A program made the position numbers and the translations under genes. Shown here piece after piece: positions 40,437 to 56,100 of a stretch of 64,000 nucleotides of DNA (position 1 is the stretch's first letter; each line of letters starts with the position of its first letter). Origin of the DNA: Phaeospirillum sp. (GTDB taxonomy: Bacteria > Pseudomonadota > Alphaproteobacteria > Rhodospirillales > Magnetospirillaceae); the NCBI GenBank assembly GCA_030651575.1, contig JAUSFB010000030.1:1-64000 (forward strand), in the 5' to 3' direction. The notes beneath the pieces were generated by a model. The model made no database searches, had not been told where the DNA came from, and saw nothing but the letters and a program-made list of their open reading frames with translations.

Positions 40437-40626
40437 GACTCTGTTAATCCCGCTTTTTGACAACAACGCCCCAATACTGAAGGTGTATGCCGGATTTGCG
40501 CGGACCCTGTCCACTCCCGCATTAGGGTAAGAACGTATGATAATCGCTTTGTGCCCCCGTGCTCGGGCATTTCGCTTTGGCTGGCGACGCTATATGGTGA
40601 AACCTCACTCTCCCATCGAGAAGCCC

Positions 40627-41364
40627 ATGGCCGTCCTGAATCCCATCATCGTCATTCCCGCCCGCATGCACGCCACCCGTCTGCCGGGCAAGCCGCTGGC
40701 CGACATTCATGGCGAGCCCATGATCGTGCATGTCTGGCGCCGCGCCATGCAGGCCGGCATCGGACCGGTGGTGGTCGCCTGTTCCGAGGCCGAGGTGTTT
40801 GACGCCGTTCAGGCCCATGGCGGCGATGCGGTGATGACCGATCCCGATCATCCATCCGGCTCGGACCGGGTGTGGGAAGCCGTGCGCAAGATTGATCCCG
40901 GCGGCGATTTCGACGCCATCGTCAATATCCAGGGCGACTTGCCGACTCTGGACCCGGATGTCATCCGCGCCGTGTTTGCGCCGCTGGAGACTCCCGAGGT
41001 CGATATCGCCACCCTGATCACCGAAATCCGGGTCGAGGAGGAACGCGCCAACCCCAACGTGGTCAAGGCGGTGGTCTCGTTGGCTCCGGGCGCCGGCGTC
41101 GGCCGGGCGCTGTATTTCAGCCGGGCCACCGTGCCGGCCAACGAGGGGCCACACTACCACCATATCGGCCTTTACGCCTATACGCGCGCCGCCTTGGCCC
41201 GCTTCGTCTCCCTGCCGATGGGCGTGCTGGAGCGCCGCGAAAAGCTGGAACAGCTGCGCGCCCTGGAGAACGGCATGCGCATCGACGCCGCTCTGGTTGA
41301 CACGGTTCCGCTCGGTGTCGATACTCCCGCCGACCTTGAACGGGCGCGCACCCTGCTGCGCTGA
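40627..41364 (+). CDS. kdsB: 3-deoxy-manno-octulosonate cytidylyltransferase
   Basis: KdsB activates Kdo with CTP for lipid A core synthesis. The 245-residue product has [50 protein letters not shown] and [13 protein letters not shown], all typical. The ATG at 40627 matches the family N-terminus; an in-frame ATG at 40594 is possible. A second homologue lies at 53648-54409. pheA follows 17 bp later. Confidence 0.95.
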
Positions 41365-41380
41365 ACGGTGATTTTCCGCC

Positions 41381-42268
41381 ATGACCAATATCCTCGATTC
41401 CGGCACAGCCCCGGACCCCGTGCGGGCCATCGCCTTTCAGGGCGAGCCCGGCGCTTATTCCCACTTGGCCTGCCGCAACGCCTATCCGGCCATGGTCCCG
41501 CTGCCCTGCGCCACCTTCGAGGACACCTTCGCCGCCGTGCGCGAGGGCCGCGCCCGCTACGCCATGATCCCCATCGACAATTCGGTGGCGGGACGGGTGG
41601 CCGATGTCCATCACCTGATGCCCTATGCCGGCCTGCACATCATCGGCGAGCATTTCGAGCGCATCAGCCATCACCTGCTGGCGGTGCCGGGCGCATCGCT
41701 CTCCTCCATCACATCGGTCAAGAGCCATGTCCACGCCCTGGGCCAGTGCCGCAACCTGATCCGTGAACTCGGCCTGAAGGTGATCGTCGGCGCCGACACC
41801 GCCGGAGCCGCCGCCGAGATCGCCGAGCGCAAGGACCCCACCATCGCCGCCATCGCTTCCGAATTGGCGGCCGAGGCCTATGGTCTGGTTTCGCTGAAGG
41901 CCAATATCGAGGATGCCGAGCACAACACCACCCGCTTCGTGGTGATGGCGCGCGAAGCGGTCGAGCCCAACCCCAACCAGCCCTGCATCACCACCTTCGT
42001 GTTCCGGGTGCGTAACGTGGCGGCGGCGTTGTACAAGGCGCTGGGCGGGTTCGCCACCAACGGCGTCAACATGACCCGGCTGGAAAGCTACATGGTCGGC
42101 GGCGAGTTCGCCGCCACCCAGTTCTTCGCCGACGTGGAAGGCCACCCCGCCAGCCGCAATCTGCGCCAGGCGTTGGAGGAACTGGACTTTTTCAGCCACG
42201 AAGTCCGCATCCTGGGAGTTTACCCGCTCCACCCATTCCGCCTGAGGCAGCGCCCGCCGGCGGAGTAG
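41381..42268 (+). CDS. pheA: Prephenate dehydratase
   Basis: The 295-residue enzyme turns prephenate into phenylpyruvate for phenylalanine synthesis. The catalytic domain has AFQGEPGAYSH, the IPIDNSVAGRV stretch and the NTTRFVV (TRF) motif. The C-terminal 90 residues are an ACT domain (TTFVFRVRNVAAALYKALGG, TRLESYMVGG), the phenylalanine feedback site. It has no chorismate mutase domain. It is probably co-transcribed with kdsB. Confidence 0.96.
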   Translation: MTNILDSGTAPDPVRAIAFQGEPGAYSHLACRNAYPAMVPLPCATFEDTFAAVREGRARYAMIPIDNSVAGRVADVHHLMPYAGLHIIGEHFERISHHLLAVPGASLSSITSVKSHVHALGQCRNLIRELGLKVIVGADTAGAAAEIAERKDPTIAAIASELAAEAYGLVSLKANIEDAEHNTTRFVVMAREAVEPNPNQPCITTFVFRVRNVAAALYKALGGFATNGVNMTRLESYMVGGEFAATQFFADVEGHPASRNLRQALEELDFFSHEVRILGVYPLHPFRLRQRPPAE

Positions 42269-42577
42269 GGAAAGGGGTTGTTTGAGTTTCTTGATGGGGT
42301 TCGTAACCCCCTTCTTTCGCGGCTCCCCATTCTGCGCGATCAGGTAGCGGGCATATCGCGTTAGGCGAACTCACGTTCAGCCCCTTTTCCAATTCCGATC
42401 ATATCGGTGACGCCAACGAAATGATCCGAAAGCTTCTGGCACGCTGTTCGTGCAGGCGCTTTTTGCCTTTTCAAGGGTATTTGAAAAATTCCTGTAATCT
42501 GAATACGTTAGCAACAGAGCAAGGTCACGAGCAGTCCAGAATTCGGTTCCATTCTCGTCTGCCCGATCAACATTCAG
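42269..42577. other. Gene-free stretch, 309 bp
   Basis: Between the convergent pheA and TetR genes I see only a small hairpin (GGGGTT/AACCCC near 42296-42310) that could help end pheA transcription. A less GC-rich segment lies around 42430-42550. No coding or RNA gene is supported. Confidence 0.45.
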
Positions 42578-43186
42578 CTACCTTCCGAACGCCCGGACCA
42601 TGGTCTCGACCGCCGCCTCGACCGCCGCCTCGATGGTGCGGCCTTCGGGCTGGGGCAGGCCCAGCATGGTTCGCATGAACAGGTCGGTGCGCAGCATGCC
42701 GACAAAGAGATCGGCGGCTTGCCAGGGCTCGACCCCCGCCAGCTCTCCCCGCTGGATCAGTTCGGCGATGACCGCGGCGATCTGGGCCTTGCCCGCCCCC
42801 GGCCCCGACTCGTAGAACGCCCTGGCCAGATCGGGCTGGCGCGCCGATTCGGCCACCACCACCCGGTACATGGCCAGGGTGTCGGGCTGGAGCAGCAGAT
42901 CCAGCAGGCGGCGGCCGACCAGACGCAAGGTGGAACGGGCGTCGGCCTTGTCCGCCAGCGGGGCAAAGGCGTCGCTGCGGTCGCACCGGCGGCGGATCAC
43001 CGCCGCGAACAGCAGATCCTTGCTTTCGAAATGGGCGTAGATGGTGGCCTTGGACACCGTGGCGCGGGCGGCGACGCCATCCATGCTGGTCGCGGCGTAT
43101 CCCACCTCCAGGAAGGCCGTCTGGGCGGCGTCCAGGATGGTCTCGCGCTTGGCCGATGGCTTTGGAGTTGGGTGGGATCTGGACAT
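42578..43186 (-). CDS. TetR/AcrR-family transcriptional regulator
   Basis: The 202-residue protein has a typical TetR N-terminal helix-turn-helix (ETILDAAQTAFLEVGYAATSMDGVAARATVSKATIYAHFESKD in outline) and a helical C-terminal ligand domain resembling AefR-like members (GRRLLDLLLQPDTLAMYRVV). Such proteins usually repress an efflux or lipid-metabolism gene, but no obvious target lies beside it, since the flanking genes are pheA and kdsD. It may act at a distance. Confidence 0.92.
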   Translation of the reverse strand: MSRSHPTPKPSAKRETILDAAQTAFLEVGYAATSMDGVAARATVSKATIYAHFESKDLLFAAVIRRRCDRSDAFAPLADKADARSTLRLVGRRLLDLLLQPDTLAMYRVVVAESARQPDLARAFYESGPGAGKAQIAAVIAELIQRGELAGVEPWQAADLFVGMLRTDLFMRTMLGLPQPEGRTIEAAVEAAVETMVRAFGR

Positions 43187-43374
43187 GGTTCCTCCGCTTG
43201 ACCCGGAAAACTAAACCCCGCAGTTCAGTTTCGGAAGGCGGGAATTCACTTTCCCGCTATTTATGCAGGAAACGGACCACAAGGTGTCCTTTTGCCTTTC
43301 CGTCCAATCCAGGTTTCGTATAGTTAGGAACCCCGCCGCTTGGGCGGGGTCAAGGATCAAGCACCGGACCGCCC

Positions 43375-44340
43375 ATGACCTCAGCCGCCGACGATATCGC
43401 CACCGCCCGCCGGGTGCTTGCCACCGAGGCCGAGGGGCTGGAAGCGCTTGCCGCGAGCCTGGGGGCCGAGTTCCTTGCGGCGATCAGGCTGCTGGAGACC
43501 GCCAAGGGGCGCGTCGTCGTCACCGGCATGGGCAAAAGCGGCCATGTGGCCCGCAAGATCGCCGCCACCATGGCGTCGACCGGCCGCACCGCCTTTTACA
43601 TCCATCCGGCCGAGGCCAGCCATGGCGATCTCGGCATGGTGACCGCCGATGACGCGGTGGTGGCGCTGTCCAATTCGGGCGAGACCCCGGAATTGGGCGA
43701 TATCCTGGCCTATACGCGCCGCTTCGACATTCCGCTGATCGGCATCACGGCGCGGGCCGGCAGCACGCTGGCCACCACCGCCGACGTGGCGCTGGTGCTG
43801 CCGCCCATTCCCGAGGCCTGTCCCATGGGGCTGGCGCCGACCACCTCGACCACCATGATGCTGGCCCTGGGCGACGCCCTGGCGGTGACCCTGCTGGAGC
43901 GCAAGGGCTTTACCGCCGCCGATTTCAAGGTGTTTCACCCCGGCGGCAAGCTGGGCCAGCGCCTGCTCAAGGTGGCCGACATCATGCATGGCGCCGATCA
44001 ACTGCCGCTGGTGGCCCTGGACGCCTCCATGGCCGAGGTTCTGCTGGTGATGACCGCCCGCAGCCTGGGTTGCGCCGGCGTCGTCGCAGCCGACGGCACC
44101 CTGGCCGGCATCGTCACCGATGGCGACCTGCGCCGCCACATGCGTCCCGACCTGCTGACCCTGTCGGCCGCCGACGCCATGACGCGGGGGCCAAAGACGA
44201 TTCCCCCCAATCTGCTGGCGGCCGAGGCGCTCCGGATCATGAACACCAAGGCGATCACCAGCCTGTTCGTGGTCGGAAGCGATGGCCGCCCGGTGGGGGC
44301 GCTGCACGTCCATGATTGTCTGCGGGCGGGAGTGGCCTGA
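43375..44340 (+). CDS. kdsD: Arabinose-5-phosphate isomerase
   Basis: KdsD/KpsF converts ribulose 5-phosphate to arabinose 5-phosphate, the first step of Kdo synthesis. The 321-residue product has a SIS domain (VVTGMGKSGHVARKIAATMA, NSGETPELGDI, GLAPTTSTTMMLALGDALA) and two CBS domains (IMHGADQLPLV onward, AADAMTRGPKTIPP onward). It heads the lptC-lptA-lptB-rpoN-ptsN run. A GC-rich hairpin (ACCCCGCC 43330-43337, GGCGGGGT 43343-43350) lies 25 bp before its start. Confidence 0.96.
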   Translation: MTSAADDIATARRVLATEAEGLEALAASLGAEFLAAIRLLETAKGRVVVTGMGKSGHVARKIAATMASTGRTAFYIHPAEASHGDLGMVTADDAVVALSNSGETPELGDILAYTRRFDIPLIGITARAGSTLATTADVALVLPPIPEACPMGLAPTTSTTMMLALGDALAVTLLERKGFTAADFKVFHPGGKLGQRLLKVADIMHGADQLPLVALDASMAEVLLVMTARSLGCAGVVAADGTLAGIVTDGDLRRHMRPDLLTLSAADAMTRGPKTIPPNLLAAEALRIMNTKAITSLFVVGSDGRPVGALHVHDCLRAGVA

Positions 44341-44344
44341 GATC

Positions 44345-45034
44345 ATGACGCTGCGGGCCGAAGCGGACGGGGTCGCGCCGACCAAGCGGCGGCTGCATGC
44401 GCCGTTGACCGGGCCGTTCGCGCGCTATTCCCGCTTCGTCGGCGTCATGAAGGTGCTGTTGCCCAGTTTGGCGGCGCTGTTGCTGGGACTGGTGGTGATC
44501 TGGCCTAAACTGTCGCTGGAAGACAAGCGGTTCCAGATCAGCTTCGCCAAATTGCCGTCCAAGGAGGTCGAGTCGCTGGCCATGCAGAACGCGCGCTATT
44601 TCGGCCTGGACGAATCCAACCGGCCGTTCGCGGTGACCTCGGATCAGGCGATTCAAATTCCGGGGAACCGCGACCTGATTCACCTTCAGGCCCCCAAGGC
44701 CGATTTCACGTCCACCTCGGGCGCCAATATCGTGGTTGACGCCGCCGCCGGCATCTATCACCAGACAAGCAAGACCCTCGACCTGTCGGGCGGAGTCAAT
44801 CTGTTCCACGACGCGGGCTACGAGATCCACACCCCCACCGCCACCATCGACCTGAGCCGCAATTCCGCCCGTGGCGTCGAGCCGGTCGAGGGCCATGGTC
44901 CGCAAGGACGCATCGAAGCCGCCGGCTTCGAGCTGTCGGGCAAGGGGCACGACATCACCTTCACCGGCAAGGCTCACCTGACATTGCGGGGAGCATCGCC
45001 CAAGGGCCAGGGCCAGGGAGCCAAACGCCGATGA
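44345..45034 (+). CDS. lptC: LPS export protein LptC
   Basis: The 229-residue product has one N-terminal membrane helix (about 33-52) and a periplasmic beta-jellyroll region, matching the bitopic LptC that links LptBFG to LptA. Sequence identity in this family is low, so position between kdsD and lptA carries much of the evidence. The ATG at 44345 is four bases after the kdsD stop, and the stop overlaps lptA as ATGA. Confidence 0.9.
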   Translation: MTLRAEADGVAPTKRRLHAPLTGPFARYSRFVGVMKVLLPSLAALLLGLVVIWPKLSLEDKRFQISFAKLPSKEVESLAMQNARYFGLDESNRPFAVTSDQAIQIPGNRDLIHLQAPKADFTSTSGANIVVDAAAGIYHQTSKTLDLSGGVNLFHDAGYEIHTPTATIDLSRNSARGVEPVEGHGPQGRIEAAGFELSGKGHDITFTGKAHLTLRGASPKGQGQGAKRR

Positions 45035-45990
45035 AGCCGATCACACTGCCGGGCCTGCTTTTCACGCTGCTGGGACTGCTGGGATCGGCCGGCAGCGCCG
45101 CCGCCCAGGGCTTCGAGATGAGCCAGTCGGGAGACCAGCAGATCCAGGTCTATTCCGACAACGGCATCGAATGGCATTCCGAGGAGTTGCGGGTGATCGC
45201 GCGCGGCAATGCCCATGCCGTTCGTGGCACCATGACCATCGACGCCGATGTGCTGACCGCTCATTACCGCAAGGGCGCCAAGGGTGACGAGATCTGGCGG
45301 CTGGACGCCGATGGCAATGTGGTGATCCGCTCGCCCAACGATACCGCCACCGGCGCCAAGGCGATCTATGACCTGGACAAGGCGGTGTTCGTACTGAAGG
45401 GAGCCCCCGCCAAGCTGGTGACTCCCACCGACAGCTTCCAGGCCACCGAATCGCTGGAATACTGGGAACTCAAGCGCATGGCGGTGCTGCGTGGCGACGC
45501 CGTCGCCACGCAGGAGACCAAGACCCTGAAGGGCGACGTCCTGACCGCTCATTTCAAGGACAAGACCGCCCCCCAGGCCAAGGGGGCCAAGCCGGCTCCC
45601 GCCAAATCCCCGGCCAAGACCGGCGGCGATGGCGGCCTGGAGTTGCAGCGGGCCGACGCCTACGGTCATGTGGTGCTGACCACCGCCACCGAGAAGCTCA
45701 CCGGCGACCGCGGCGACTACAACGTTGAAACCGGTATCGCCACCGTCTCGGGTTCGGTTAAGATCGTCCGCGACGGCGTCAACCAGCTTGACGGCGGCTG
45801 GGCTCACGTCAATCTGAACACCGGGGTCAGCAAACTCTTCGCCAACGCTCCCGGCGGCGAGGACACCGGCAAACGGGTGCAGGGTCTCTTCATTCCCCAG
45901 AAAAAGGGCGAGAAGAGCGATCCCGGTGAAAAAGGCCGGGCCAGCTTTACGGGCAATGTGCCCGGCGCCAAGACGGATAGGGAAAGATGA
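45031..45990 (+). CDS. lptA: LPS transport periplasmic protein LptA (OstA-like)
   Basis: The 319-residue product has a signal peptide ([19 protein letters not shown]) and OstA-type repeats ([40 protein letters not shown]). It carries LPS across the periplasm between LptC and LptD. It is longer than E. coli LptA, with a Lys/Ala/Pro-rich insertion near residue 185-205 and a charged C-terminal tail. It overlaps lptC and lptB by four bases each. Confidence 0.92.
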
Positions 45991-46781
45991 AGCCTGTGAC
46001 CCTCGCACCATCGCCGGCCGCCGATCCCGCTCGGCCCACGCCGCGTCTGGTCGCCGACAATCCCGGCCTTGTCGCCCGCAATATCGGCAAGCGCTTCAAG
46101 AAGCGCCCGGTGCTGCGCGGCGTTTCCATCTCGGTGCAGCGGGGCGAGGCGGTGGGGCTGCTTGGTCCCAACGGCGCCGGCAAGACCACCTGTTTTTACT
46201 GCATCACCGGCCTGATCAATCCCGATGACGGCGAAATCCTGCTGGACGGCAACGAGATCACTGCCCTGCCCATGTATCGCCGCGCCCGCCTTGGCATCGG
46301 CTACCTGCCCCAGGAAGCATCGATCTTTCGCGGCCTGTCGGTCGAGGGTAACATCATGGCGGTGCTGGAAGTGGTCGAGCCCGACCGCGAGCGCCGCGAG
46401 CACGATCTGGAAAGCCTGTTGGCCGAGTTTTCCATCAGCCATCTGCGCCGCGCTCCGGCCATGGCGCTGTCGGGCGGCGAGCGCCGGCGGGTCGAGATCG
46501 CCCGCGCCCTGGCCTCGCGCCCCCATTTCATCTTGCTGGACGAGCCGCTGGCCGGCATCGATCCCATCGCGGTATCCGACATCCGCGATCTGGTGGCGCA
46601 TCTGAAGGATCGCGGCATCGGCGTCCTGATCACCGACCACAATGTTCGCGAGACCCTGGAGATCATCGACCGCGCCTATATCTTGCACGACGGCGCCGTC
46701 CTGATGGAGGGCCGCCCGGCCGAGATCGTCGCCCATGAAGGGGTGCGGCGGGTGTATCTCGGCGAACGGTTCAGCCTGTAA
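45987..46781 (+). CDS. lptB: LPS export ABC transporter ATP-binding protein LptB
   Basis: The 264-residue ATPase powers LPS extraction with LptFG. It shows Walker [10 protein letters not shown], the family-specific [19 protein letters not shown], signature [15 protein letters not shown] and Walker [14 protein letters not shown], then [11 protein letters not shown]. About 25 extra residues precede the usual N-terminus. It overlaps lptA by four bases. Confidence 0.97.
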
Positions 46782-46792
46782 AAGTATCCGCC

Positions 46793-48304
46793 ATGGCAAT
46801 CGGTCCCCGGCTGGATATTCGCCAGACCCAATCCCTGGTCATGACGCCGCAGCTTCAGCAGGCGATCAAGCTGTTGCAGCTGTCCAACTTCGAGCTGGCC
46901 ACCTTTATCGACCAGGAGCTGGAACGCAATCCGCTGCTGGAGCGCGAAGAGGCCGATCGCGCCGTCGAACGGACCGAGCCCAAGGCCGACGCCACCGACC
47001 TGCCGGTGCTGGACTCCGCCCCGCCCGAGACGCCCATGCTGGACGGCATGACCGCCGGGTCGGCCGAGGACGGCCTTGACGTCGATTACGACAACACCTT
47101 CAACAACGACAGCGCCGCCGACGGCATTGATGGCGAGGCATTCGGCCAATGGTCGAGCAAAAGCGGCGGCAGCCATAATTTTGAGGATGGGGAATCCAGC
47201 CTGGAGCAGATGGCGGCCGACGACATCTCGTTGCGCGATCATCTGGTCGCCCAGCTGAATGTCGATGTGACCGATCCCGCCGACCGCCTGATCGCCTTGC
47301 ACCTGATCGAGATGCTGGACGAATCCGGCTATCTGATCGGCGACCTCGCCGAACTGGCCGAGCGGCTGGCCTGCCCGGTCGAGCGGGTCGAGCGAGTGCT
47401 GAAGAAAGTCCAGAGCTTTGACCCGGTGGGCGTGTTCGCTCGCACGCTCCGCGAATGCCTGGGGCTGCAACTGGCCGAGCGCAACCGGCTTGACCCCGCC
47501 ATGCAGGCCATGCTGGATCATCTGGAGATGCTGGCCAAGCGCGACCTGCCCGGCCTGATGCGGGTCTGTGGCGTCGATGCCGAGGATCTTGCCGACATGA
47601 TCGGTGAAATCAAGGCGCTGGACCCGAAGCCGGCGCTGCGCTTTGACCATGTGATCGCCCAGCCCATCACCCCCGATGTGCTGATGCGCCGCGCCCAGGA
47701 CGGCAGCTGGCTGGTGGAGCTGAATTCCGACACTCTGCCGCGTGTCCTGGTCAATGCCCGCTATTATTCCAAGGTCGCCGCCGGAGCGCGCAGCAAGGAC
47801 GACAAGACCTATATCAGCGAGCGGTTCCAGTCGGCCAATTGGCTGGTCAAGTCGCTGCACCAGCGCGCCACCACCATCTTGAAGGTGGCAACCGAGCTGG
47901 TCCGCCAGCAAGACGCCTTCTTTCGCCTGGGGGTGCAGCATCTGCGGCCGCTGGTGCTGCGCGACATCGCCACCGTCATTTCCATGCATGAAAGCACGGT
48001 CAGCCGGGTCACCTCGAACAAGTACATCGCCACGCCGCGCGGGATCTACGAGTTGAAGTATTTCTTCACCCAATCCATCAATTCGGCCGATGGCGGCGAC
48101 GCCCATTCCGCCGAATCGGTGCGTCATCGCATCAAGGCCATGATCGATGCCGAGGGCAAAGCCGTGCTGTCCGACGATCAGATCGTGGTGGCGCTCAAAG
48201 CCGATGGCATCGACATCGCACGGCGAACGGTGGCAAAGTATAGGGAAGCCATGAACATCGCGTCGTCGGTTCAAAGGCGACGGGAAAAGTCGCTGGGGAT
48301 GTAA
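46793..48304 (+). CDS. rpoN: RNA polymerase sigma-54 factor
   Basis: The 503-residue sigma factor directs transcription of nitrogen, motility and other activator-dependent genes. Region I is Gln/Leu-rich (QSLVMTPQLQQAIKLLQLSN) and is followed by an acidic linker. The core-binding domain contains RVLKKVQSFDPVGVFARTL. The C-terminus has the HTH (LRDIATVISMHESTVSRVTSNKY in outline) and the RpoN box ARRTVAKYRE. It follows lptB by 11 bp. Confidence 0.97.
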   Translation: MAIGPRLDIRQTQSLVMTPQLQQAIKLLQLSNFELATFIDQELERNPLLEREEADRAVERTEPKADATDLPVLDSAPPETPMLDGMTAGSAEDGLDVDYDNTFNNDSAADGIDGEAFGQWSSKSGGSHNFEDGESSLEQMAADDISLRDHLVAQLNVDVTDPADRLIALHLIEMLDESGYLIGDLAELAERLACPVERVERVLKKVQSFDPVGVFARTLRECLGLQLAERNRLDPAMQAMLDHLEMLAKRDLPGLMRVCGVDAEDLADMIGEIKALDPKPALRFDHVIAQPITPDVLMRRAQDGSWLVELNSDTLPRVLVNARYYSKVAAGARSKDDKTYISERFQSANWLVKSLHQRATTILKVATELVRQQDAFFRLGVQHLRPLVLRDIATVISMHESTVSRVTSNKYIATPRGIYELKYFFTQSINSADGGDAHSAESVRHRIKAMIDAEGKAVLSDDQIVVALKADGIDIARRTVAKYREAMNIASSVQRRREKSLGM

Positions 48305-48495
48305 GCCGGCGAGGTCCGGCGATTGAGGGACACGATAACAACCGCGACTCTCGTCAAGCTTGACTTGGGAGCGGGGTGGACCTATTTTCCGGCCCTTCCC
48401 CGACACCGGCGGGGATGACGGAACAACGTCGTCTTGCCCCGGATAAGGTAAGGGAACCCGCGGACCCTAACGTGTCCGCAAGCTATGGTGGATTG

Positions 48496-48960
48496 ATGGA
48501 AATCACCGACCTGATTAGCCCCGCGGCCGTCATTCCGAATCTGCGCGCCACCTCGAAGAAGCAGGCGTTGCAGGACCTGGCGCGACGCGCGGCCGAGATC
48601 ACTGGCCTGCACGAGCGGGCCATTTTCGATGTACTGCTGGAGCGCGAGCGCCTGGGCACCACCGGCGTCGGTAACGGCATCGCCATTCCCCACGGCAAGC
48701 TGGCCAGCCTGGACCGCCTCTACGGCCTGTTTGCCCGGTTGGAGCGCCCGATCCACTTCGAGTCCATCGACGAGCAGCCGGTCGACCTGATCTTCCTGCT
48801 GCTGGCCCCTGAATCGGCCGGCGCCGACCATCTGAAGGCCTTGGCCCGCGTCTCCCGCCTGCTGCGCGATAAAAGCGTCTGCGAAAAGCTGCGCGGCACC
48901 GATAATTCGGAAGCCCTTTACGCCCTGCTGACCGAATCCCCCGCCAGCCGCGCGGCGTAA
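48496..48960 (+). CDS. ptsN: Nitrogen-regulatory phosphotransferase protein EIIA-Ntr
   Basis: The 154-residue EIIA domain has the phosphorylatable histidine at 66 (GIAIPHGKL) and the family stretches LLERERLGTTGVGNG and DLIFLLLAPESAGADHLKAL. It is the last acceptor of the PTS-Ntr chain and regulates potassium uptake and other processes. The ATG at 48496 has GGTGGA ahead; the frame is open from 48376 but without homology. About 190 bp separate it from rpoN, and no hpf gene is present between them. Confidence 0.95.
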   Translation: MEITDLISPAAVIPNLRATSKKQALQDLARRAAEITGLHERAIFDVLLERERLGTTGVGNGIAIPHGKLASLDRLYGLFARLERPIHFESIDEQPVDLIFLLLAPESAGADHLKALARVSRLLRDKSVCEKLRGTDNSEALYALLTESPASRAA

Positions 48961-49015
48961 CCCTTCTCCCACCCGTAGGCGGGAGGGAAGGGAAGCCGCG
49001 GTTGGCCTGCAAGCC

Positions 49016-49252
49016 TCAGTGAACGCTCAACGGCTCCAGGTCGTGCTGTCGTACGGCGGCGAAGGCGGTGGCGCGGTCGGGGGCTTCGCCGATCTGGGTG
49101 CCGTCGGCGGCGTGAATGGCCCAACTGCCTTCGCCCGTCGCACCCTTGTGCCGGACATAGGCGACGATGGGAACGCCCCAGGTCGCCAGATCGGATACGC
49201 TCATGATCCCTTCGGGGATGGTGGCGATGGTCTTGTCGTCTGTGCTTTTCAT
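49016..49252 (-). CDS. DUF1150-family small protein
   Basis: The 78-residue product resembles the DUF1150 proteins that accompany small heat-shock genes in alphaproteobacteria (SVSDLATWGVPIVAYVRHK, WAIHAADGTQIG). The ATG at 49252 has GGGAGG at seven bases and lies one base after the Hsp20 stop, so the pair is one transcript. Its function is unknown; co-expression with Hsp20 suggests a role in heat stress. Confidence 0.85.
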   Translation of the reverse strand: MKSTDDKTIATIPEGIMSVSDLATWGVPIVAYVRHKGATGEGSWAIHAADGTQIGEAPDRATAFAAVRQHDLEPLSVH

Positions 49253-49253
49253 A

Positions 49254-49766
49254 TCAGACCTCCCTTTTCTGGCCGGTTCTGGCCCGGGACTGTGCGGAAC
49301 CATCGGCGTCGTCGGCTGCGACCGTGATGGTCTGGGCCGGAGTATGGGGACGTGCGCTGCCTTGAATGGGAATGCTGCGGATTCGGGGCTCGGGCAGTTC
49401 GCGGATCAGGTCCACATGCAGCAAGCCGTTGTCGAGCGCCGCACCTTTGACCTCGATCCCCTCGGCCAGCACGAAAGCGCGCTGGAACTGCCGCGCGGCG
49501 ATGCCGCGATGGATGAAGACGCGGCCGGCCTCGTCCTCGTTCTGGCGACCGCGGATGACCAGCTGGTTGTCTTCCAGCGCCACCGTCAGGTCGTCCATGG
49601 AGAACCCGGCCACCGCCAGGGTGATCCGCAACCCGCTTTCTCCGGTCTGCTCGATATTGTAGGGGGGATAGCCCTCGGCCGAGGTCTTCGAGATGCGGTC
49701 GAGCACCCGTTCGAAGTGATCGAAGCCCAGCAGCAACGGACTGTTGAAAGCGGATAAGCGGGACAT
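49254..49766 (-). CDS. Small heat-shock protein, Hsp20/IbpA family
   Basis: The 170-residue chaperone has the alpha-crystallin domain (PPYNIEQTGESGLRITLAVAGF in outline, LTVALEDNQLVIRGRQ, FIHRGIAARQFQRAFVLA, GLLHVDLIRELP) and an IPI motif in the C-terminal region (RSIPIQG), as in IbpA-type proteins. It holds unfolded proteins during heat stress. A strong GAGGAGG site precedes the ATG at 49766. Confidence 0.94.
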   Translation of the reverse strand: MSRLSAFNSPLLLGFDHFERVLDRISKTSAEGYPPYNIEQTGESGLRITLAVAGFSMDDLTVALEDNQLVIRGRQNEDEAGRVFIHRGIAARQFQRAFVLAEGIEVKGAALDNGLLHVDLIRELPEPRIRSIPIQGSARPHTPAQTITVAADDADGSAQSRARTGQKREV

Positions 49767-49802
49767 AACCGACGTCCTCCTCGGATGAGCGAGTACGGTG
49801 TC

Positions 49803-49866
49803 GAAGGGTCCGACCATCGGCACCCTTCCAGTATTATATCTTGGGCGTGATTAAGGGATCGTCAAG
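49803..49866 (-). promoter_or_regulatory. Heat-shock-type promoter and 5' UTR hairpin of the hsp20 gene
   Basis: On the minus strand CTTGAC (49866-49861), with CCCAAGAT and an overlapping TATAAT (49838-49833) downstream, resembles an RpoH or housekeeping promoter, though spacing is imperfect. The leader then contains a hairpin at 49828-49803 (GAAGGGT/ACCCTTC with CCGA/TCGG inside). This position is typical of ROSE-type RNA thermometers, but the Shine-Dalgarno region is not visibly paired. Confidence 0.45.
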
Positions 49867-49874
49867 CGCGACCG

Positions 49875-51665
49875 CTATTTCCGGGCGTCCCCGGCCGGCG
49901 TCAGCATGGACTTTTCGACCATGGCGCGAAAAAGCGGCACCCGCAACTCCAGCTCGGCGAAGGTGCCGCTGTCGGCGACCGCGCCATCGGCCAGAAACAG
50001 CAGGCGGTCGCAATGGCGCACCGTACTGAGCCGGTGGGCGATGATCACCAGCGTCTTGGAGCCGCGTAGGGAATCGATGGCGCCGACCACCGCCTGTTCG
50101 GTCTCGCTGTCCAGGGCCGAGGTCGCCTCATCGAGAATGAGGATGGCCGGGTCGCCGTACAGGGCGCGGGCGATGCCGATGCGCTGACGCTGGCCGCCCG
50201 ACAGCCGCGCACCGCGCTCGCCCAGGCGGGAGTCGAGGCCATCGGGCATGGCCCGCACCACCTCTTCCAACTGGGCCTGGCCCAAGGCCCGCCACACCGC
50301 CGGCTCGTCGATGACATGGTCATCGAGGCCGAAGGCGACGTTGCGGCGAATGGAATCGTCCAGCACCGCCACATGCTGGGGAACATAGCCGACGCCCAGG
50401 GCCATGGCGGGATGGCGGGCCGGCTGCCCGTTGACCAGGACGCGGCCGGCGGTGGCGGTCAGCAGGCCCAGGATGACGTCGACCAGGGTCGATTTGCCCG
50501 CGCCCGAGGATCCCACCAGCCCCACCGCCTGACCATGGGCGATGCTCACCGAAATACCCGTCAGGGTGTCGGCACTGCTGCCGGGATAGCGGTAGTGCAC
50601 GTCATCCAGGCAGATGGCGGCCTCTGCCCCGTCGGCGGCGGCGGCGGGCGGGGCGGGGTCTGCCTGAACCGGACGGTGCAGCTCCGCATGCAGCTTCTCG
50701 ATGACGGTGGTGCGCCGCCGCAGTTCCGCCAGGGAGGACAAGATGCGGCTGGCCGACGGCATCAGCCGCATGGCAGCGATTCCGAACATGCTGACGATGG
50801 AGGCGGTCTCGACGGTCGGCTGGCCGGTCTCGCGCGCCCAGATCACCAAGCCGCCGATGCCGACCACCATCAGGGTCTCGACAAAGAGGCGGGCGGTACT
50901 GAGATTGAGGCTGGCGAGGCTTTGCAGCCGGCCGCGGGCGTGAACCTCGGCGCGGAAACGGTGGACGAAATGATCCTGTGATCCGCTGACCAGCACCTCC
51001 TTGATGGCGGCGAGGCTTTCCTTGGCCACCGTCAGGGCTTCCAACTCGTGGCCATAGCCCTGGGCGCCCCAGCGCCGGAAGATCGGGCTGCTGACCTTGT
51101 GGAAGATCAGCCCGACCGTCAGCAGACTGACGGCGCTGATCACGGTCAGTCCGGGCTTGACCGACAGCAGCAGGCCCAGGGTGACCACCGACAGCAAGAC
51201 CTCCATGACGAGTTCCAGCATCAGGCGGATGGAATCGAAGGCGATGGGGGCGCTGGTGGACAGGTGATTGATCATCTCGGCGGAATTCCGGCCGAGATGC
51301 GCCACATAAGGCTGGCCGAGATAGCGAGCGTACAAGGAGGACAGAAACTCGGACAGACCATCATTGGCGACCCGGCTGGTCAGATAGCCGATGGCCAGCA
51401 GGGCCATGTTCTTGATGGCGAAGAACATTACGATGGCGATGGCGAAGGTCCAGGCGTTCATGGCCTGCAACAGGCCCGAGGCCCAGCCGGTCGCGCCGCC
51501 CGCGACGGGAGCCGCGCCCAGCAGGCTGTTGAGCAAGGTGACCAGCAGGCCAAAGCCGGCCAGTTCCAGGACGCTGGCGACCAGCATGGCCGGCAGCAGC
51601 GCCGCCATTCTCAGCTTGACGCCGCCGGAAGGCAGGGCGAGTAACTTGGCGAGCAGGCTTATCAT
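49875..51665 (-). CDS. ABC exporter, fused permease and ATPase
   Basis: The 596-residue half-transporter has six membrane helices in the first 320 residues and a C-terminal ATPase with GSSGAGKSTLVDVILG, LSGGQRQRIGIARAL and ILILDEATSALDSE. The ABC_membrane-type domain and exporter layout resemble MsbA/PglK-type flippases for lipid-linked sugars. Being next to a glycosyltransferase and a CMP-sugar synthetase homologue, it may export a glycan or glycolipid, though peptide or lipid export is equally possible from sequence alone. It should work as a homodimer. It is last in the minus-strand cluster starting at 54409. Confidence 0.9.
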   Translation of the reverse strand: MISLLAKLLALPSGGVKLRMAALLPAMLVASVLELAGFGLLVTLLNSLLGAAPVAGGATGWASGLLQAMNAWTFAIAIVMFFAIKNMALLAIGYLTSRVANDGLSEFLSSLYARYLGQPYVAHLGRNSAEMINHLSTSAPIAFDSIRLMLELVMEVLLSVVTLGLLLSVKPGLTVISAVSLLTVGLIFHKVSSPIFRRWGAQGYGHELEALTVAKESLAAIKEVLVSGSQDHFVHRFRAEVHARGRLQSLASLNLSTARLFVETLMVVGIGGLVIWARETGQPTVETASIVSMFGIAAMRLMPSASRILSSLAELRRRTTVIEKLHAELHRPVQADPAPPAAAADGAEAAICLDDVHYRYPGSSADTLTGISVSIAHGQAVGLVGSSGAGKSTLVDVILGLLTATAGRVLVNGQPARHPAMALGVGYVPQHVAVLDDSIRRNVAFGLDDHVIDEPAVWRALGQAQLEEVVRAMPDGLDSRLGERGARLSGGQRQRIGIARALYGDPAILILDEATSALDSETEQAVVGAIDSLRGSKTLVIIAHRLSTVRHCDRLLFLADGAVADSGTFAELELRVPLFRAMVEKSMLTPAGDARK

Positions 51666-51696
51666 GTCTTCCTTTTTCGGCCGGGCGCGGCCGGAA

Positions 51697-53634
51697 TCAG
51701 GACGCTTCCACGTCCAGCACCACTTTCAGCACCGTTCCGCTCTTTGCCGTGTCCCAGGCCTGACGGAATTGGGCCAGGGGCATGGCGCATTGGAAATAGG
51801 GGGTAAGGTCGAGGTTCCCCATCAGCTTCAGCGCCGCCTCGAAATCATCCTTGGTGCTGCCGACCGAGCCGATGATAAACTTATCATAGGCGGCCACCGC
51901 CTCGAACGAGAAGGCGCGTTGACCATAGGGCAGGCCCAGCAGCAGCAAGGCGGCATTGGCCGGCGAGCCGTGCAGGGCCCGATCCAGCACTTCCGGGTCG
52001 CCGGTGGCCTCGACCACCACGTTATGCTCGGCCAGGGCGGCGCTCAGATCGTCGGTGGCGGTGATGGCGGTGCCGTCGAACAGGACGCGGCGTTTGGAAT
52101 TGCGGTCGAACACCGTGACCGTATGCCCCTGATGGGCCAGGACCTTGGCGACCATGTGGCCGATGGGACCGGCGCCGATGACCAGGCATCGCTGATCGGT
52201 GCGGCCGTTGGCCCGCATCACCGGGGCCAGCCGGCGCAGGCCCTTCAGCACCACGGCCAGCGGCTCGGCCAGAACCGCCCGGCGCAGGGCCACGTCCTTG
52301 GGGATGGCGTGGACGAAGCGGGCGGGGGCCACCATGAACTCGGCATAGGCGCCGTTGCGCCGCAACACTCCAAGCTCGGTGCGTTCGGCGCAGCCGATGG
52401 CGTTGTCGGCCAGACATTCCTTGCAGAGTCCGCAGCCCTGGATGCACTCGACCACCACCGGATCACCCTCGGCGACGGTGGTGACGTTCTGGCCGATGGC
52501 GACGATCTCGCCGGAGAATTCGTGGCCCGGCACGATGGGATAGCTGCCCAGCCCGTTGTGGAAATAGCCGAGGGTGCCGTTCAGGATTTCCAGATCGGTG
52601 GCGCAGACCGCCACATGGGCGACCCGGATCAGCACGTCGCCGGGTTTGACCTCGGGCAGGTCGATGGCTTCCAGCGCCGCCTTGCCGGGGCCGTGGATGA
52701 CCACCGCCTGGGTCGGGCGGTCGAAATAGGCGTGCTGTCGCTCGGCTCGGGTTTCCATGGCGTGAGTCTCCAGCAGGCCCCTGACGGCGCCGACATTGCG
52801 GTGAAAGCGGTAATAGAGGATTTCGCGCAGACGCTGGCCCAGGCCGAGCCGCCGCGCCACCGGGCTGTGGGTCGGGCGGATGGCACGGCCGAGATCGACC
52901 GCCATATGGGCCAGTTCGCGCGCCAGCTCGGCGGGGACCGATCGCGGCCCCTTGATGTTCATGTGCCGCCATGCCACCGCCTCGCGGTAATAGCGGCGGC
53001 GGATCTGGGGCCAGGTTTCCTCGTGGATATGAACCAGCATCGCCTTCGGTTCGTACAGGACCGCGTGGCCATGCTCCATCCAATGGCGCGCCCATTCGAT
53101 GTCTTCCAGGCCGGGCAGTTCCTCGTCGAAGGGATGCTGCTCCCACAGATCCTTGCGAATGGCGGAATTGGCGTTATTGACGCGCCAATGGGCGGGATCC
53201 TCGCGGCGCGGCGCCGGCCCGAAGATGCGTTCGAAATCCTCGGCCTCGGCGAATTTGGAGCTGGCCGCCCCGATCTGGCGGCCATAGGTCATGGCGACCG
53301 CGTCGTCGCGCAGCGGTTCCACCAGGGCTCCCAGCCAGTGGGGATCCACCGGGATGGTATGGGCCGAGGCGATGGCCATGAAACGGCCGCGCCCGGCCCG
53401 GATGCCGGTGTTGAGCGAGTAACCGAAGGTGAAATCCTGCTTGGCGATCTGAATCAGGCGGTCGGCGCGGTCGCGGGCGATATCGCGCGAGCGGTCGTAG
53501 GAGCCCGAATCGATGACGATGACCTCGAAATCCCGATAGGTCTGGCGATCCAGGGCGTCGAACAGGGCGGGCAGATGCTTCTGCTCGTTAAAGCAACGGA
53601 TGATGACCGAGGTCTCGACCGAGGATTCCTGCAT
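51697..53634 (-). CDS. Fusion of family 2 glycosyltransferase and zinc-dependent alcohol dehydrogenase
   Basis: One uninterrupted 645-codon frame encodes two enzymes. Residues 7 to about 290 are a GT-A/GT2 glycosyltransferase: SVIIRCFNEQKHLPALFDAL, VIDSGSYDRS, GRGRFMAIASAH, and GLEDIEW with the ED motif at 177-178. Residues 309-642 are a medium-chain dehydrogenase. They have the catalytic zinc ligands in CATDLE (344) and GHEFSGE (371-372), a structural zinc Cys cluster in GCGLCKECLADNAIGC, and the NAD motif GAGPIG (487-492). Neither half looks degraded. It may link transfer and oxidation of a sugar, or two steps in one glycan. The gene lies 13 bp after the CMP-sugar synthetase homologue. Confidence 0.9.
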   Translation of the reverse strand: MQESSVETSVIIRCFNEQKHLPALFDALDRQTYRDFEVIVIDSGSYDRSRDIARDRADRLIQIAKQDFTFGYSLNTGIRAGRGRFMAIASAHTIPVDPHWLGALVEPLRDDAVAMTYGRQIGAASSKFAEAEDFERIFGPAPRREDPAHWRVNNANSAIRKDLWEQHPFDEELPGLEDIEWARHWMEHGHAVLYEPKAMLVHIHEETWPQIRRRYYREAVAWRHMNIKGPRSVPAELARELAHMAVDLGRAIRPTHSPVARRLGLGQRLREILYYRFHRNVGAVRGLLETHAMETRAERQHAYFDRPTQAVVIHGPGKAALEAIDLPEVKPGDVLIRVAHVAVCATDLEILNGTLGYFHNGLGSYPIVPGHEFSGEIVAIGQNVTTVAEGDPVVVECIQGCGLCKECLADNAIGCAERTELGVLRRNGAYAEFMVAPARFVHAIPKDVALRRAVLAEPLAVVLKGLRRLAPVMRANGRTDQRCLVIGAGPIGHMVAKVLAHQGHTVTVFDRNSKRRVLFDGTAITATDDLSAALAEHNVVVEATGDPEVLDRALHGSPANAALLLLGLPYGQRAFSFEAVAAYDKFIIGSVGSTKDDFEAALKLMGNLDLTPYFQCAMPLAQFRQAWDTAKSGTVLKVVLDVEAS

Positions 53635-53647
53635 GTCGCCGGCGGTC

Positions 53648-54409
53648 TCAGGTCTTCGGGCCGGACAACGACGCCAGCGGATCGTCGGCCATCAGGCGCG
53701 CCACCCGTTCCAGATCCTCGGGGGTATCCACTGCCTGGCTGGCATGGCGGGTCGGGACCATGCGCACCTTCACGCCGTGTTCGAGGAAGCGGTTCATGTC
53801 GATGGACTCCGTGATCTCCAGCGGCGTCGGCGACAGTCGGGTGAACAGGGTCAGCGCCTCGCGCCGGAACGGCATGATGCACACCTGCTTGAACACCGGC
53901 ATGCGGGCGAAGTCGTTCTTGAAGCGGGTGGGAATGGGCTCCCGCGACATATAGAGCGCGTCGCCGTTAAGGTCCATCACCACCTTGATCGAGTTGGGGC
54001 TGAGGAACTCTTCCTCGGTCTCGATGGGCGCCGTCAGGTTGACGCAGCGGATGGACGGATCGGCCAGCATGGGGGCCACCGCCTCGTCGATCATGTCGGG
54101 ATGGACCATGGGCTCGTCGCCCTGGACCATGACGACGATATCGGCCTCGACCTGGGCCATGGCCTCGGCGATGCGGTCGGAGGCGCGTTCATGCCGGTCG
54201 GAGGTCATGATGGCGGTCCCGCCGAATCCCGCCACCGCGTCGGCGATCTCCTGATCGCAGGTGGCGACGTAGACGCCGCACAGGGACTTGCTCATGGCGG
54301 TTCGCCGGGTGACGTGCTCGATCATCGACCGGCCCAGGATGGGGGCCAGCGGCTTGCCGGGGAAACGCGACGAGCCCATGCGGGCGGGAATCATGGCGAC
54401 GATTTTCAT
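53648..54409 (-). CDS. CMP-Kdo synthetase homologue (second copy)
   Basis: The 253-residue product is a cytidylyltransferase of the KdsB family: IPARMGSSRFPGKPLAPILG, VATCDQEIADAV, ASDRIAEAM, VMVQGDEPMV, and HASQAVDTPEDLERV near the end. It differs from the window's housekeeping kdsB (SDR motif context RASDR versus GSDR, low overall similarity by eye), so it may activate a different 3-deoxy-ulosonic acid. It heads the minus-strand cluster and lies 60 bp from a divergent sugar isomerase gene. The ATG at 54409 is chosen from the family N-terminus; its ribosome binding site is weak. Confidence 0.88.
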   Translation of the reverse strand: MKIVAMIPARMGSSRFPGKPLAPILGRSMIEHVTRRTAMSKSLCGVYVATCDQEIADAVAGFGGTAIMTSDRHERASDRIAEAMAQVEADIVVMVQGDEPMVHPDMIDEAVAPMLADPSIRCVNLTAPIETEEEFLSPNSIKVVMDLNGDALYMSREPIPTRFKNDFARMPVFKQVCIMPFRREALTLFTRLSPTPLEITESIDMNRFLEHGVKVRMVPTRHASQAVDTPEDLERVARLMADDPLASLSGPKT

Positions 54410-54469: not shown

Positions 54470-55333
54470 GTGACAGCCGCCGCTTCGCTCCCTACCATGC
54501 CGAACCGACATCCCGCCATCAGAGGCCTGCCCGTGCCATTCGCCATTTCCAACATCGCCCTGCCCGCCTTCGACCACCAGCGCGAGCTGGCCGCCCTGCC
54601 CGACCTCGGCTTCACCGGCCTTGAAGTGGCCCCCAGCCGGGTCTGGCGGGATGGTTGGAATTCAGGGCGGGTCGAAGCCTATCGCCGGACCGTCGAAGCG
54701 GCGGGCCTGACGGTGGTGGGCCTGCATTCGCTGTTCTTCGACTGTCCGGAACTGGGCCTGTTCAAGACGCCGGAGCTGCGTGCCCGGACCCTCGATTTCA
54801 TGGTGGAGCTGTCGGCGCTGTGCCGCGATCTGGGTGGGCGCACCTTGATCTATGGCGGCGGCCGCAGGCGGGGTGATCTGCCGGCGGACGAAGCGCGCGC
54901 CGAGACGCGGCGGTTTTTGTCCGAGCTGTTGCCGCGCGTGGAAGGCCACGGCACCAGGCTGTGCTTCGAGCCGCTGGGTCCGAGGGACAGCGATTTCCTC
55001 AACACCGCCGCCGAGTGTCTGGCCCTGACGGAGGAGGTGAACCATCCCGGCCTGGGCCTGCAACTGGACGCCAAGGCGTTGATGGAAAACGGCGAGACCG
55101 GACCGGACAGCTTTGCCGCGGTCAAGGGGCGTCTCGACCATTTCCACGCCAACGATCCCGGTCTGGTGCCGCCGGGCAGCACCGGCACGGTGGATCATGC
55201 TCTGTTGGGACGCCGGCTGCGGGCGATCGGGTATGACGGCTGGGTCTCGTCCGAGCAGCGCCTGCTGTCCGAGGCCGATCCCCTGGCCGACGTGGCGCGC
55301 GGCGCCGCCCTTCTCAAGGAGTGCTATGCATGA
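54470..55333 (+). CDS. TIM-barrel sugar phosphate isomerase/epimerase
   Basis: The 287-residue product belongs to the xylose-isomerase-like/AP-endonuclease-2 superfamily: GFTGLEVAPSRVW, GLTVVGLHSLFF, LIYGGGRRRGD, LCFEPLGPRDSDFLN, LGLQLDAKALME, HFHANDP and GWVSSEQ. Its metal-binding Glu, Asp and His residues are in place. It probably isomerises or epimerises a sugar for the adjacent glycan genes. The start is GTG at 54470, with AGGGG about nine bases ahead; a later GTG near 54533 is an alternative. The stop overlaps the SDR gene as ATGA. Confidence 0.8.
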   Translation: MTAAASLPTMPNRHPAIRGLPVPFAISNIALPAFDHQRELAALPDLGFTGLEVAPSRVWRDGWNSGRVEAYRRTVEAAGLTVVGLHSLFFDCPELGLFKTPELRARTLDFMVELSALCRDLGGRTLIYGGGRRRGDLPADEARAETRRFLSELLPRVEGHGTRLCFEPLGPRDSDFLNTAAECLALTEEVNHPGLGLQLDAKALMENGETGPDSFAAVKGRLDHFHANDPGLVPPGSTGTVDHALLGRRLRAIGYDGWVSSEQRLLSEADPLADVARGAALLKECYA

Positions 55334-56100
55334 ACAGTCCATTCCTCCGCCCCGATTGGGTGCCGGCGGTACCCGCCGGCATGCGCGTCCTGATCACCGG
55401 CGCCACGGGGGGGCTGGGCCGTGCCCTGGTCGCCATGCTGGCCGAGGGCAGCGACTGCGTCATCGGCGCCCATGGCTCCAGCCAATCGTTGGAGCCGGCC
55501 CCCAACCTGATTCCGTTGCAAAGGACCTTTGCCGGAGAGTCCGATTGCCGCGCCGTGGTGGACGAGTTCGCCCACAAGGCCGGCGGCATCGACGCCCTGG
55601 TGGTGCTGTCGGGCTGCATCCTTCATACCGGCCATTGGAAGGACATCACCGAGGCGCAGTGGCGGCGCGAGCAGGAGATCAATCTGGATCAGCCGTTTTT
55701 CCTGGCGCGCGCCGCCATGGAGCGGATGAAGGCCCAAGGCTCGGGCGGCCGCGTGCTGCTGACCGGCACCGAATCGGCCATTCACGGCGGCTCGGCCACC
55801 TCGTTCCCCTACGCCGTCGCCAAGCGTGGCACCGAATGCATGGTCCAGGGCATGGCCCGCGAAGGGGCCGCCCATTCCATCCTGGTCAACGGCCTGCGCT
55901 TTGGTTTCATCGAATCGGGCTTTCACCAGCGCTGGCACAATCGCACGCCCGAGCAGATGGACGAACGCGCGGCCCTGGTGCCGCTGAAGCGCGGCGGCCA
56001 TGTGGACGAAGCCGCCGCCCTGATGATCTGGCTGCTGTCGGGCTGGTCCAGTTTCATGACCGGCCAGATGATCCCGCTGACCGGCGGCGACTGGCTGTAA
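55330..56100 (+). CDS. Short-chain dehydrogenase/reductase
   Basis: The 256-residue enzyme has the Rossmann motif TGATGGLGRA, VVLSGC in place of NNAG, a catalytic-loop region LLTGTES and YAVAK with the catalytic Tyr and Lys. It ends with SGWSSFMTGQMIPLTGGDWL, standard for SDRs. The substrate is unknown; being coupled by an ATGA overlap to the sugar isomerase, a nucleotide-free sugar or ulosonate precursor is plausible. The ATG at 55330 is preferred over the in-frame GTG at 55321 because of that overlap. Confidence 0.88.
   Translation: MNSPFLRPDWVPAVPAGMRVLITGATGGLGRALVAMLAEGSDCVIGAHGSSQSLEPAPNLIPLQRTFAGESDCRAVVDEFAHKAGGIDALVVLSGCILHTGHWKDITEAQWRREQEINLDQPFFLARAAMERMKAQGSGGRVLLTGTESAIHGGSATSFPYAVAKRGTECMVQGMAREGAAHSILVNGLRFGFIESGFHQRWHNRTPEQMDERAALVPLKRGGHVDEAAALMIWLLSGWSSFMTGQMIPLTGGDWL

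Follow-up and report, generated by a model that had tools for sequence, protein, structure and literature searches.

We report that a GT2-type glycosyltransferase and a zinc-dependent medium-chain dehydrogenase (MDR) are joined in one polypeptide of 645 amino acids, encoded at 51697-53634 on the minus strand of the window, by which we mean the whole stretch of DNA analysed here, 64,000 nucleotides from Phaeospirillum sp. The fusion is real, as its open reading frame and Pfam matches show, and it occurs at full length in 14 of 317 genomes of the order, the window's own included, which between them represent six families and eight genera. Its domains belong to known families and are combined in a new order; the first-pass annotation had stated that no described enzyme of this order was known, and the open-licence full-text literature yielded none among the matches listed, nor any paper on a GT2-MDR fusion or on the oxidative route proposed below. 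What is presented here is a two-domain enzyme that has been conserved together with a definite group of partner genes. As to its function, we tentatively suggest, from the sequence and its gene neighbourhood, that it may be a CMP-ulosonate transferase joined to a dehydrogenase of the route by which its donor is made, within a module for surface or flagellin glycans.

Frame and distribution of the fusion

The single frame of 645 codons had been recognised in the first-pass annotation, which left its strand unnamed; it opens with an ATG at 53634, ends with a stop codon at 51697-51699 and holds no internal stop. Above their respective cut-offs it matches the Pfam families Glycos_transf_2 (PF00535) at residues 9-123 (67.3 bits against 23.3), ADH_N at 330-446 (93 against 23.5), Glu_dehyd_C, the 'glucose dehydrogenase C-terminus', at 453-641 (55.9 against 34.9) and ADH_zinc_N at 490-605 (32.8 against 31.8). 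Pfam and the alignments place the GT2-type half at residues ~1-297 (52744-53634, nucleotide coordinates derived from the residue numbers) and the MDR half at residues ~306-645 (51700-52719), both on the minus strand. Since the near unfused orthologues at two loci, L075 and L076, align with the fusion to about residue 306, and standalone MDR models start to match it near residue 308, each half is complete and next to no linker separates the two. A separate internal start for the MDR half was considered and rejected, there being no start codon common to the family: a GTG lies within the first MDR strand in most rows, with none in L036 or L078, and an ATG is found only in L079 and L081. The plus strand carries an 807-codon antisense open frame that spans the gene (51391-53814), such frames being expected in G+C-rich DNA, and nothing marks it as a gene. 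A single-sequence structure model of the fusion reached a pLDDT of 34 and a pTM of 0.23, so that no domain contact can be read from it.

A stop or frameshift, or relatives that are always two separate genes, had earlier been named as signs of an artefact. All 14 fusion frames are without a stop and no standalone copy of the fusion's MDR was found; that sequencing or assembly joined two genes is ruled out by the occurrence in 14 genomes of six families, by open frames in 14/14 and by a junction that can be aligned and, with no point found in its favour, we give the idea practically no credence.

Full-length matches were found in nine of 40 relatives (own genome included). Across the order, 18/317 genomes match a nine-row profile at E 1e-50, namely the 14 fusions and four with GT2 only: G795 and G796 carry true GT2-only orthologues with a 2-hydroxyacid dehydrogenase directly after, G914 gives a weak match, and in G806 the contig ends within the GT2 half, so that it is not assessable as unfused. 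Matches in the class sample (4/385, the window's own fusion and three GT2-only) and in the phylum sample (8/398, the own fusion and seven GT2-only) include no fusion from any other genome, the best three candidates per genome being scored in these searches as in the order-wide one. Within the window's own genus the fusion is patchy, being present in 7/17 genomes. Phage records (53) and plasmid records (2458) gave half matches only, none of them covering >80% of the query, and a scan of the own genome's contigs found one MDR, which is unrelated. Our alignments took in nine of the 14 fusions (A1), 11 of the 14 for the MDR half (A3) and, for the GT2 half (A2), 13 of the 14 fusions with two of three near and six of 12 farther unfused relatives.

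The glycosyltransferase and dehydrogenase halves

The earlier description of an intact GT2 half holds in part. The DSGS (residues 42-45) and the xED catalytic-base motif (E177-D178) are there, with D42, G44, S45, E177 and D178 invariant in 14/14 fusions, but the metal-binding DxD is absent and S90-A91-H92 (53359-53367, minus strand) takes its place in every one of the 14. S90 and H92 are invariant in 21/21 aligned GT2 halves, farther unfused ones included, position 91 being A or G, and the DCD of the chondroitin synthase K4CP (2z87) aligns with the SAH; a plain DxD-bearing GT2 is ruled out by these rows together with the K4CP alignment. The DxD is usual in fold A and is not required of every glycosyltransferase family. 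In a survey of fold-A enzymes (PMC7185993), GT14 and bacterial GT6 are described as having lost the DxD and as being metal independent. K4CP, itself a GT2 enzyme, resembles the fusion in its Pfam match, in DSGS and xED and in a fold-A profile match, and the fusion differs from it in the S-A/G-H that stands for DxD and in the attached MDR. The GT2-only relatives within the order score 480-511 bits with the GT2 half, and any solved protein at most ~75 bits.

The MDR half bears out what had been claimed for it, each of the named residues being present. ADH_N and a cofactor domain exceed their cut-offs, both zinc sites and GxGxxG are found and, to judge from these residues, the dehydrogenase site is intact. 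The catalytic-zinc ligands C344, H371 and E372 (52519-52605, minus strand), which align with those of 2dq4 and 1e3j, and the structural-zinc cysteines C401-x2-C404-x2-C407-x7-C415 (52390-52434, minus strand) are invariant in 14/14, as are D510 and E457, the latter aligning with a Glu of the threonine dehydrogenase profile match. In the Rossmann box GAGPIG (487-492; 52107-52176, minus strand, together with D510 after the second strand) only G487, G489 and G492 are invariant in the 14. D510 aligns with Asp in threonine dehydrogenase and with Ala in the NADP-dependent ketose reductase, from which we infer that the MDR half probably prefers NAD(H).

No model specific for aldose 1-dehydrogenases exceeds its cut-off among the NCBIfam matches listed (25 of 57), and the Glu_dehyd_C match is general. 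Dehydrogenases of threonine, ketoses and polyols, for which the group oxidised is a secondary alcohol, give the MDR half scores equal to or above those of aldose dehydrogenases. Threonine dehydrogenase 2dq4, ketose reductase 1e3j and galactitol-1-phosphate 5-dehydrogenase 4a2c match it over the whole length, with both zinc sites and the Rossmann box alike. From such polyol- and threonine-type MDRs it differs in sitting C-terminal to a glycosyltransferase and in its C-G-x-D-x-H motif, in which the His of threonine and ketose dehydrogenases is replaced by E349, conserved in 13/14 with Asp in the remaining fusion. Identity to the standalone MDRs found is ~30-36% at best and none of them is a near relative, the best others in 289 class genomes reaching 138-142 bits against 619 for the fusion's own.

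The conserved E349 may alter the proton relay, and could speak for an MDR half that has no turnover and serves as a scaffold or an NAD sensor. We think this quite improbable: the zinc ligands and Rossmann glycines are invariant in 14/14, and in four of the five pairs compared the MDR half has a Nei-Gojobori dN/dS (uncorrected for codon bias) of 0.20-0.27, the exception being the window against L030 at 0.70, with a dS that looks low. For the GT2 half the range is 0.17-0.35.

Partner genes of fused and unfused relatives

The fusion is the second gene of a close minus-strand run. The first is a KdsB-like cytidylyltransferase paralogue (53648-54409, the start ATG being our choice), whose stop codon is separated from the ATG of the fusion by 13 bp, and the third an ABC exporter (49875-51665), which starts 31 bp past the fusion's stop and has MsbA as its best NCBIfam model, at 276 bits far under the cut-off of 602. 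Divergent from the run, on the plus strand, are a xylose-isomerase-like TIM barrel (54470-55333, by Pfam), a homologue of which stands beside an ABC exporter homologue in L075, and a short-chain dehydrogenase (SDR; 55321-56100) with a 63% homologue in the same locus.

The KdsB homologue noted earlier does adjoin the fusion, but it is a paralogue and not the housekeeping enzyme. It matches the subfamily model PRK13368 (319.4 bits over 255) and fails both KdsB equivalogs, TIGR00466 (152.8 under 155.2) and NF003948 (188.4 under 281); the housekeeping KdsB, encoded outside the module at 40537-41364 on the plus strand (NF003948, 388.6 bits over 281), is ruled out as the neighbour. Where the housekeeping enzyme has EKLEQ the paralogue has ESIDM; ESI/VDM is found in 8/8 module-type rows and LEQ in two KdsB rows (window 40537 and L028), and two other paralogues carry GIDY and SCDS. 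The window thus holds two kdsB-like genes within 14 kb (40537-54409), the housekeeping one near kdsD and near genes that, from their order and sequence, we take to be lptC/A/B-like and rpoN.

Co-occurrence of the KdsB homologue with the fusion, put forward earlier as a check, proved general: a cytidylyltransferase is near in 12/12 assessable fusion loci, L065 and L078 of the 14 not being assessable. It is KdsB-like and upstream in L035, L036, L037, L079, L080 and L081 (58-69% identity to the window's) and KdsB-like and downstream in L030-L034 (39-40%). The most constant partner had been missed, however: a D-2-hydroxyacid dehydrogenase lies directly upstream of the fusion in 13/14 loci (in L078 just its 50-residue end at a contig edge), the exception being the window. 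In the window's own genome the module is split, with the KdsB-like gene and the fusion in the window and the remainder on contig C2, since the order on C2 (PseF-like, CBS-nucleotidyltransferase, GalE-like (56%), PF04199 hydrolase (54%), 2-hydroxyacid dehydrogenase (68%; C2 194873-195802)) is that of L032 and L033, where the fusion comes next. The PF04199 protein, which scores best as an arylformamidase (136 bits, cut-off 223), is present in 8/12 judged modules (own C2, L031-L035, L037 and L080) and absent from L030, L036, L079 and L081. SDR genes lie close by as well in three fusion loci, those of the window, L036 and L078, and in the unfused L075, and no aminotransferase was found beside the fusion among the neighbour proteins scanned.

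The 2-hydroxyacid dehydrogenase profile finds its best match in phosphoglycerate dehydrogenases, and the nearest solved relatives make D-glycerate. This would suit a GT2 half with an ordinary NDP-sugar donor, the 2-hydroxyacid dehydrogenase and the MDR making a small acid or polyol (D-glycerate, D-lactate) as acceptor or decoration, as would the weak resemblance, at profile level, between the GT2 half and glucosyl-3-phosphoglycerate synthases (E ~1e-4 to 2e-5). With the DxD missing from all 21 rows and a cytidylyltransferase near in every judged locus, we regard such an arrangement as unlikely.

Contig C2 also carries a second, paralogous run (L090 376-6808) of a KdsB-like gene (42%), a HAD phosphatase, a 2-hydroxyacid dehydrogenase, an acyltransferase, a GalE-like gene and a 570-aa protein. 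A family of ~560-600 aa recurs beside the modules (L035 6589-8331, L033 12364-14091, L075 5091-6785, L090 5084-6808 and others); it has 23 invariant columns in 10 aligned rows and no clear Pfam or solved relative, one weak Epimerase_2 match (L033) apart, and is possibly an undescribed glycosyltransferase. Elsewhere in the own genome (L089 15330-16880) a methyltransferase-like stretch, below cut-off, stands N-terminal to a GT2 domain.

The nearer unfused loci L074-L076 have a cytidylyltransferase and a 2-hydroxyacid dehydrogenase in 3/3; L075 and L076 have neither MDR nor lactonase, and L076 is also without an SDR. In a midpoint-rooted GT2 tree of 26 of 29 sequences (L055, L056 and L077 dropped), the MDR-less L075 and L076 nest among the fusions, while L037 and L080 branch outside them at a fork with support 91/98, a position which suggests, though not firmly, that the MDR was lost in the L075/L076 family and not gained in the others. 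A short tail in both resembles the MDR start; this is no more than a hint, and a tblastn search for traces of the MDR at the two loci was negative.

Among ten distant unfused loci with a whole GT2 (L027, L028, L029, L049-L054 and L111), a cytidylyltransferase is present in 10/10 and a 2-hydroxyacid dehydrogenase in 9/10 (missing in L053). A classical SDR and a lactonase-like protein occur together in five (L028, L050, L051, L054 and L111), whereas tblastn of the retrieved sequence, with a small set of queries and an E limit of 1e-4, detected neither of them in the remaining five; the Pfam scan of these loci took in part of the neighbours. The lactonase-like protein is PF08450 in L028, L050, L051 and L111. 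In L054 (8525-10192, genome G746) a UlaG-like metallo-beta-lactamase-fold domain is fused to the GT2 N-terminus, its best solved match being L-ascorbate-6-phosphate lactonase UlaG (E 2.9e-11), with the same name from NCBIfam below cut-off; by its domains, then, L054 is a second fusion of the same GT2 family in the same kind of module. The best models for the SDRs, all below cut-off, are PRK07231 'glucose 1-dehydrogenase' (L050, L051, L054) and D-xylose 1-dehydrogenase (L028, L111). Some 4-6 kb separates the GT2 from the SDR and lactonase genes of L028 and L111, the SDR of L111 being on the opposite strand. The three most distant unfused loci, outside the count of ten, hold a weak 2-hydroxyacid dehydrogenase match and NeuB (L055) and weak cytidylyltransferase matches, one in L056 and two in L077, and tblastn gave no SDR or lactonase match in any of them. 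The loci from Gemmobacter (L027), Thalassovita (L028) and Sulfitobacter (L111) share the GT2 subfamily and the partners of the fusion loci but differ in that the GT2 is unfused, the MDR absent and the cytidylyltransferase NeuA/PseF-like rather than KdsB-like. Several loci hold MptE-like proteins, of the Maf type, which point to flagellin or other surface glycosylation.

A possible oxidative route to CMP-ulosonates

A CMP donor is suggested by two features taken together, namely that a cytidylyltransferase of an ulosonate-activating, CTP-using family (PF02348) is always near where this could be judged and that the DxD is gone. A CMP sugar has one phosphate and the DxD metal serves diphosphate donors, so a metal would be dispensable, and the GT2 half could act as a metal-free transferase of the CMP-ulosonate type. 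For the MDR half we favour a part in donor synthesis, which we infer from gene context only.

Kdo and sialic-type acids are made by aldol condensation. It is conceivable, if rather doubtful, that the CMP-ulosonates considered here arise by an oxidative route instead, and that they are transferred by a GT2 family which lacks the DxD and in two cases, with the MDR and with the UlaG-like lactonase, is joined to an enzyme of the route. Oxidation of an aldose at C1 would give a lactone, which would be opened to an aldonic acid; this acid would be oxidised at C2 by the 2-hydroxyacid dehydrogenase to a 2-keto acid, which a KdsB/NeuA-like enzyme would activate and the GT2 transfer. Where the GT2 is not fused to an MDR, the aldose-1-dehydrogenase-like SDR and the gluconolactonase- or UlaG-like protein would carry out the first two of these steps; where it is, the SDR would give way to the NAD-linked zinc MDR half and the lactonase to the PF04199 hydrolase. 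The idea of an oxidative origin comes from aldose dehydrogenase-like, lactonase-like and 2-hydroxyacid dehydrogenase genes that travel together, and is supported by the UlaG-like fusion in L054, by the sugar 1-dehydrogenase-like SDRs and by the Glu_dehyd_C match; L111, examined after the hypothesis was set, has both SDR and lactonase and fits.

Several observations weaken it. The exchange of SDR for MDR is not clean, given the SDRs near the window's fusion and in L036, L075 and L078; the proposed substitute for the lactonase is arylformamidase-like and lacking in 4/12 modules; 5/10 distant loci are without SDR and lactonase, L053 is without the 2-hydroxyacid dehydrogenase, and L075 and L076 are without MDR and lactonase. 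The distance of 4-6 kb in L028 and L111, and the preference of the 2-hydroxyacid dehydrogenase for phosphoglycerate dehydrogenase profiles, tell in the same direction. Moreover, the MDR half resembles secondary-alcohol dehydrogenases at least as much as aldose ones, and one would more naturally expect neighbouring enzymes of a route to be joined than the first and the last.

The main alternative is a tailoring role at the transfer step, a possibility we take seriously without leaning towards it. The MDR half would then oxidise or reduce a hydroxyl, in the ring or the side chain, either of the CMP-ulosonate or of the residue just transferred. Two active sites in one protein suggest adjacent steps, and the closest solved MDR relatives catalyse the oxidation of a secondary alcohol in a polyol or an amino acid. 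The unfused orthologues L075 and L076, with the same partners, suggest that the dehydrogenase is an added step, inessential for transfer, and the ESI/VDM of all eight module-type rows, against LEQ in KdsB, suggests that the substrate may be a modified Kdo. There is precedent in KdnB, which acts on Kdo before amination and belongs to another dehydrogenase superfamily. Tailoring would nevertheless give no reason for the company of a 2-hydroxyacid dehydrogenase, an SDR and a lactonase, and the aminotransferase that amination calls to mind was not seen among the neighbour proteins scanned.

Known systems resemble the module in parts. In wall teichoic acid synthesis the MDR reductase TarJ and the cytidylyltransferase TarI make a CDP-polyol donor, so that an MDR again works beside a cytidylyltransferase; TarJ, however, is a separate protein and TarI is of an IspD-like type, whereas that of the fusion module is PF02348/KdsB-like. 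Shewanella KdnA and KdnB, with KdsB, make 8-amino-Kdo, and here too a dehydrogenase modifies an ulosonate near KdsB, but KdnB is an iron-type alcohol dehydrogenase, and next to the fusion no aminotransferase was seen among the proteins scanned. The CMP-Kdo transferases WbbB (GT99), KpsC and WaaA use CMP-ulosonate donors, as proposed for the GT2 half, and belong to other glycosyltransferase families and folds.

The oxidative route would be new, if real, and the retention of the fusion beside acidic-sugar genes in some relatives is a hint that these sugars may be made in a manner so far undescribed. Were this true, a DxD-less GT2 subfamily would gain a donor class, the CMP-ulosonates, and genes whose present annotation goes no further than 'phosphoglycerate dehydrogenase', 'acylneuraminate cytidylyltransferase', 'gluconolactonase' and 'glycosyltransferase' would become one testable pathway, yielding unusual acidic sugars of flagella, capsules or lipopolysaccharide.
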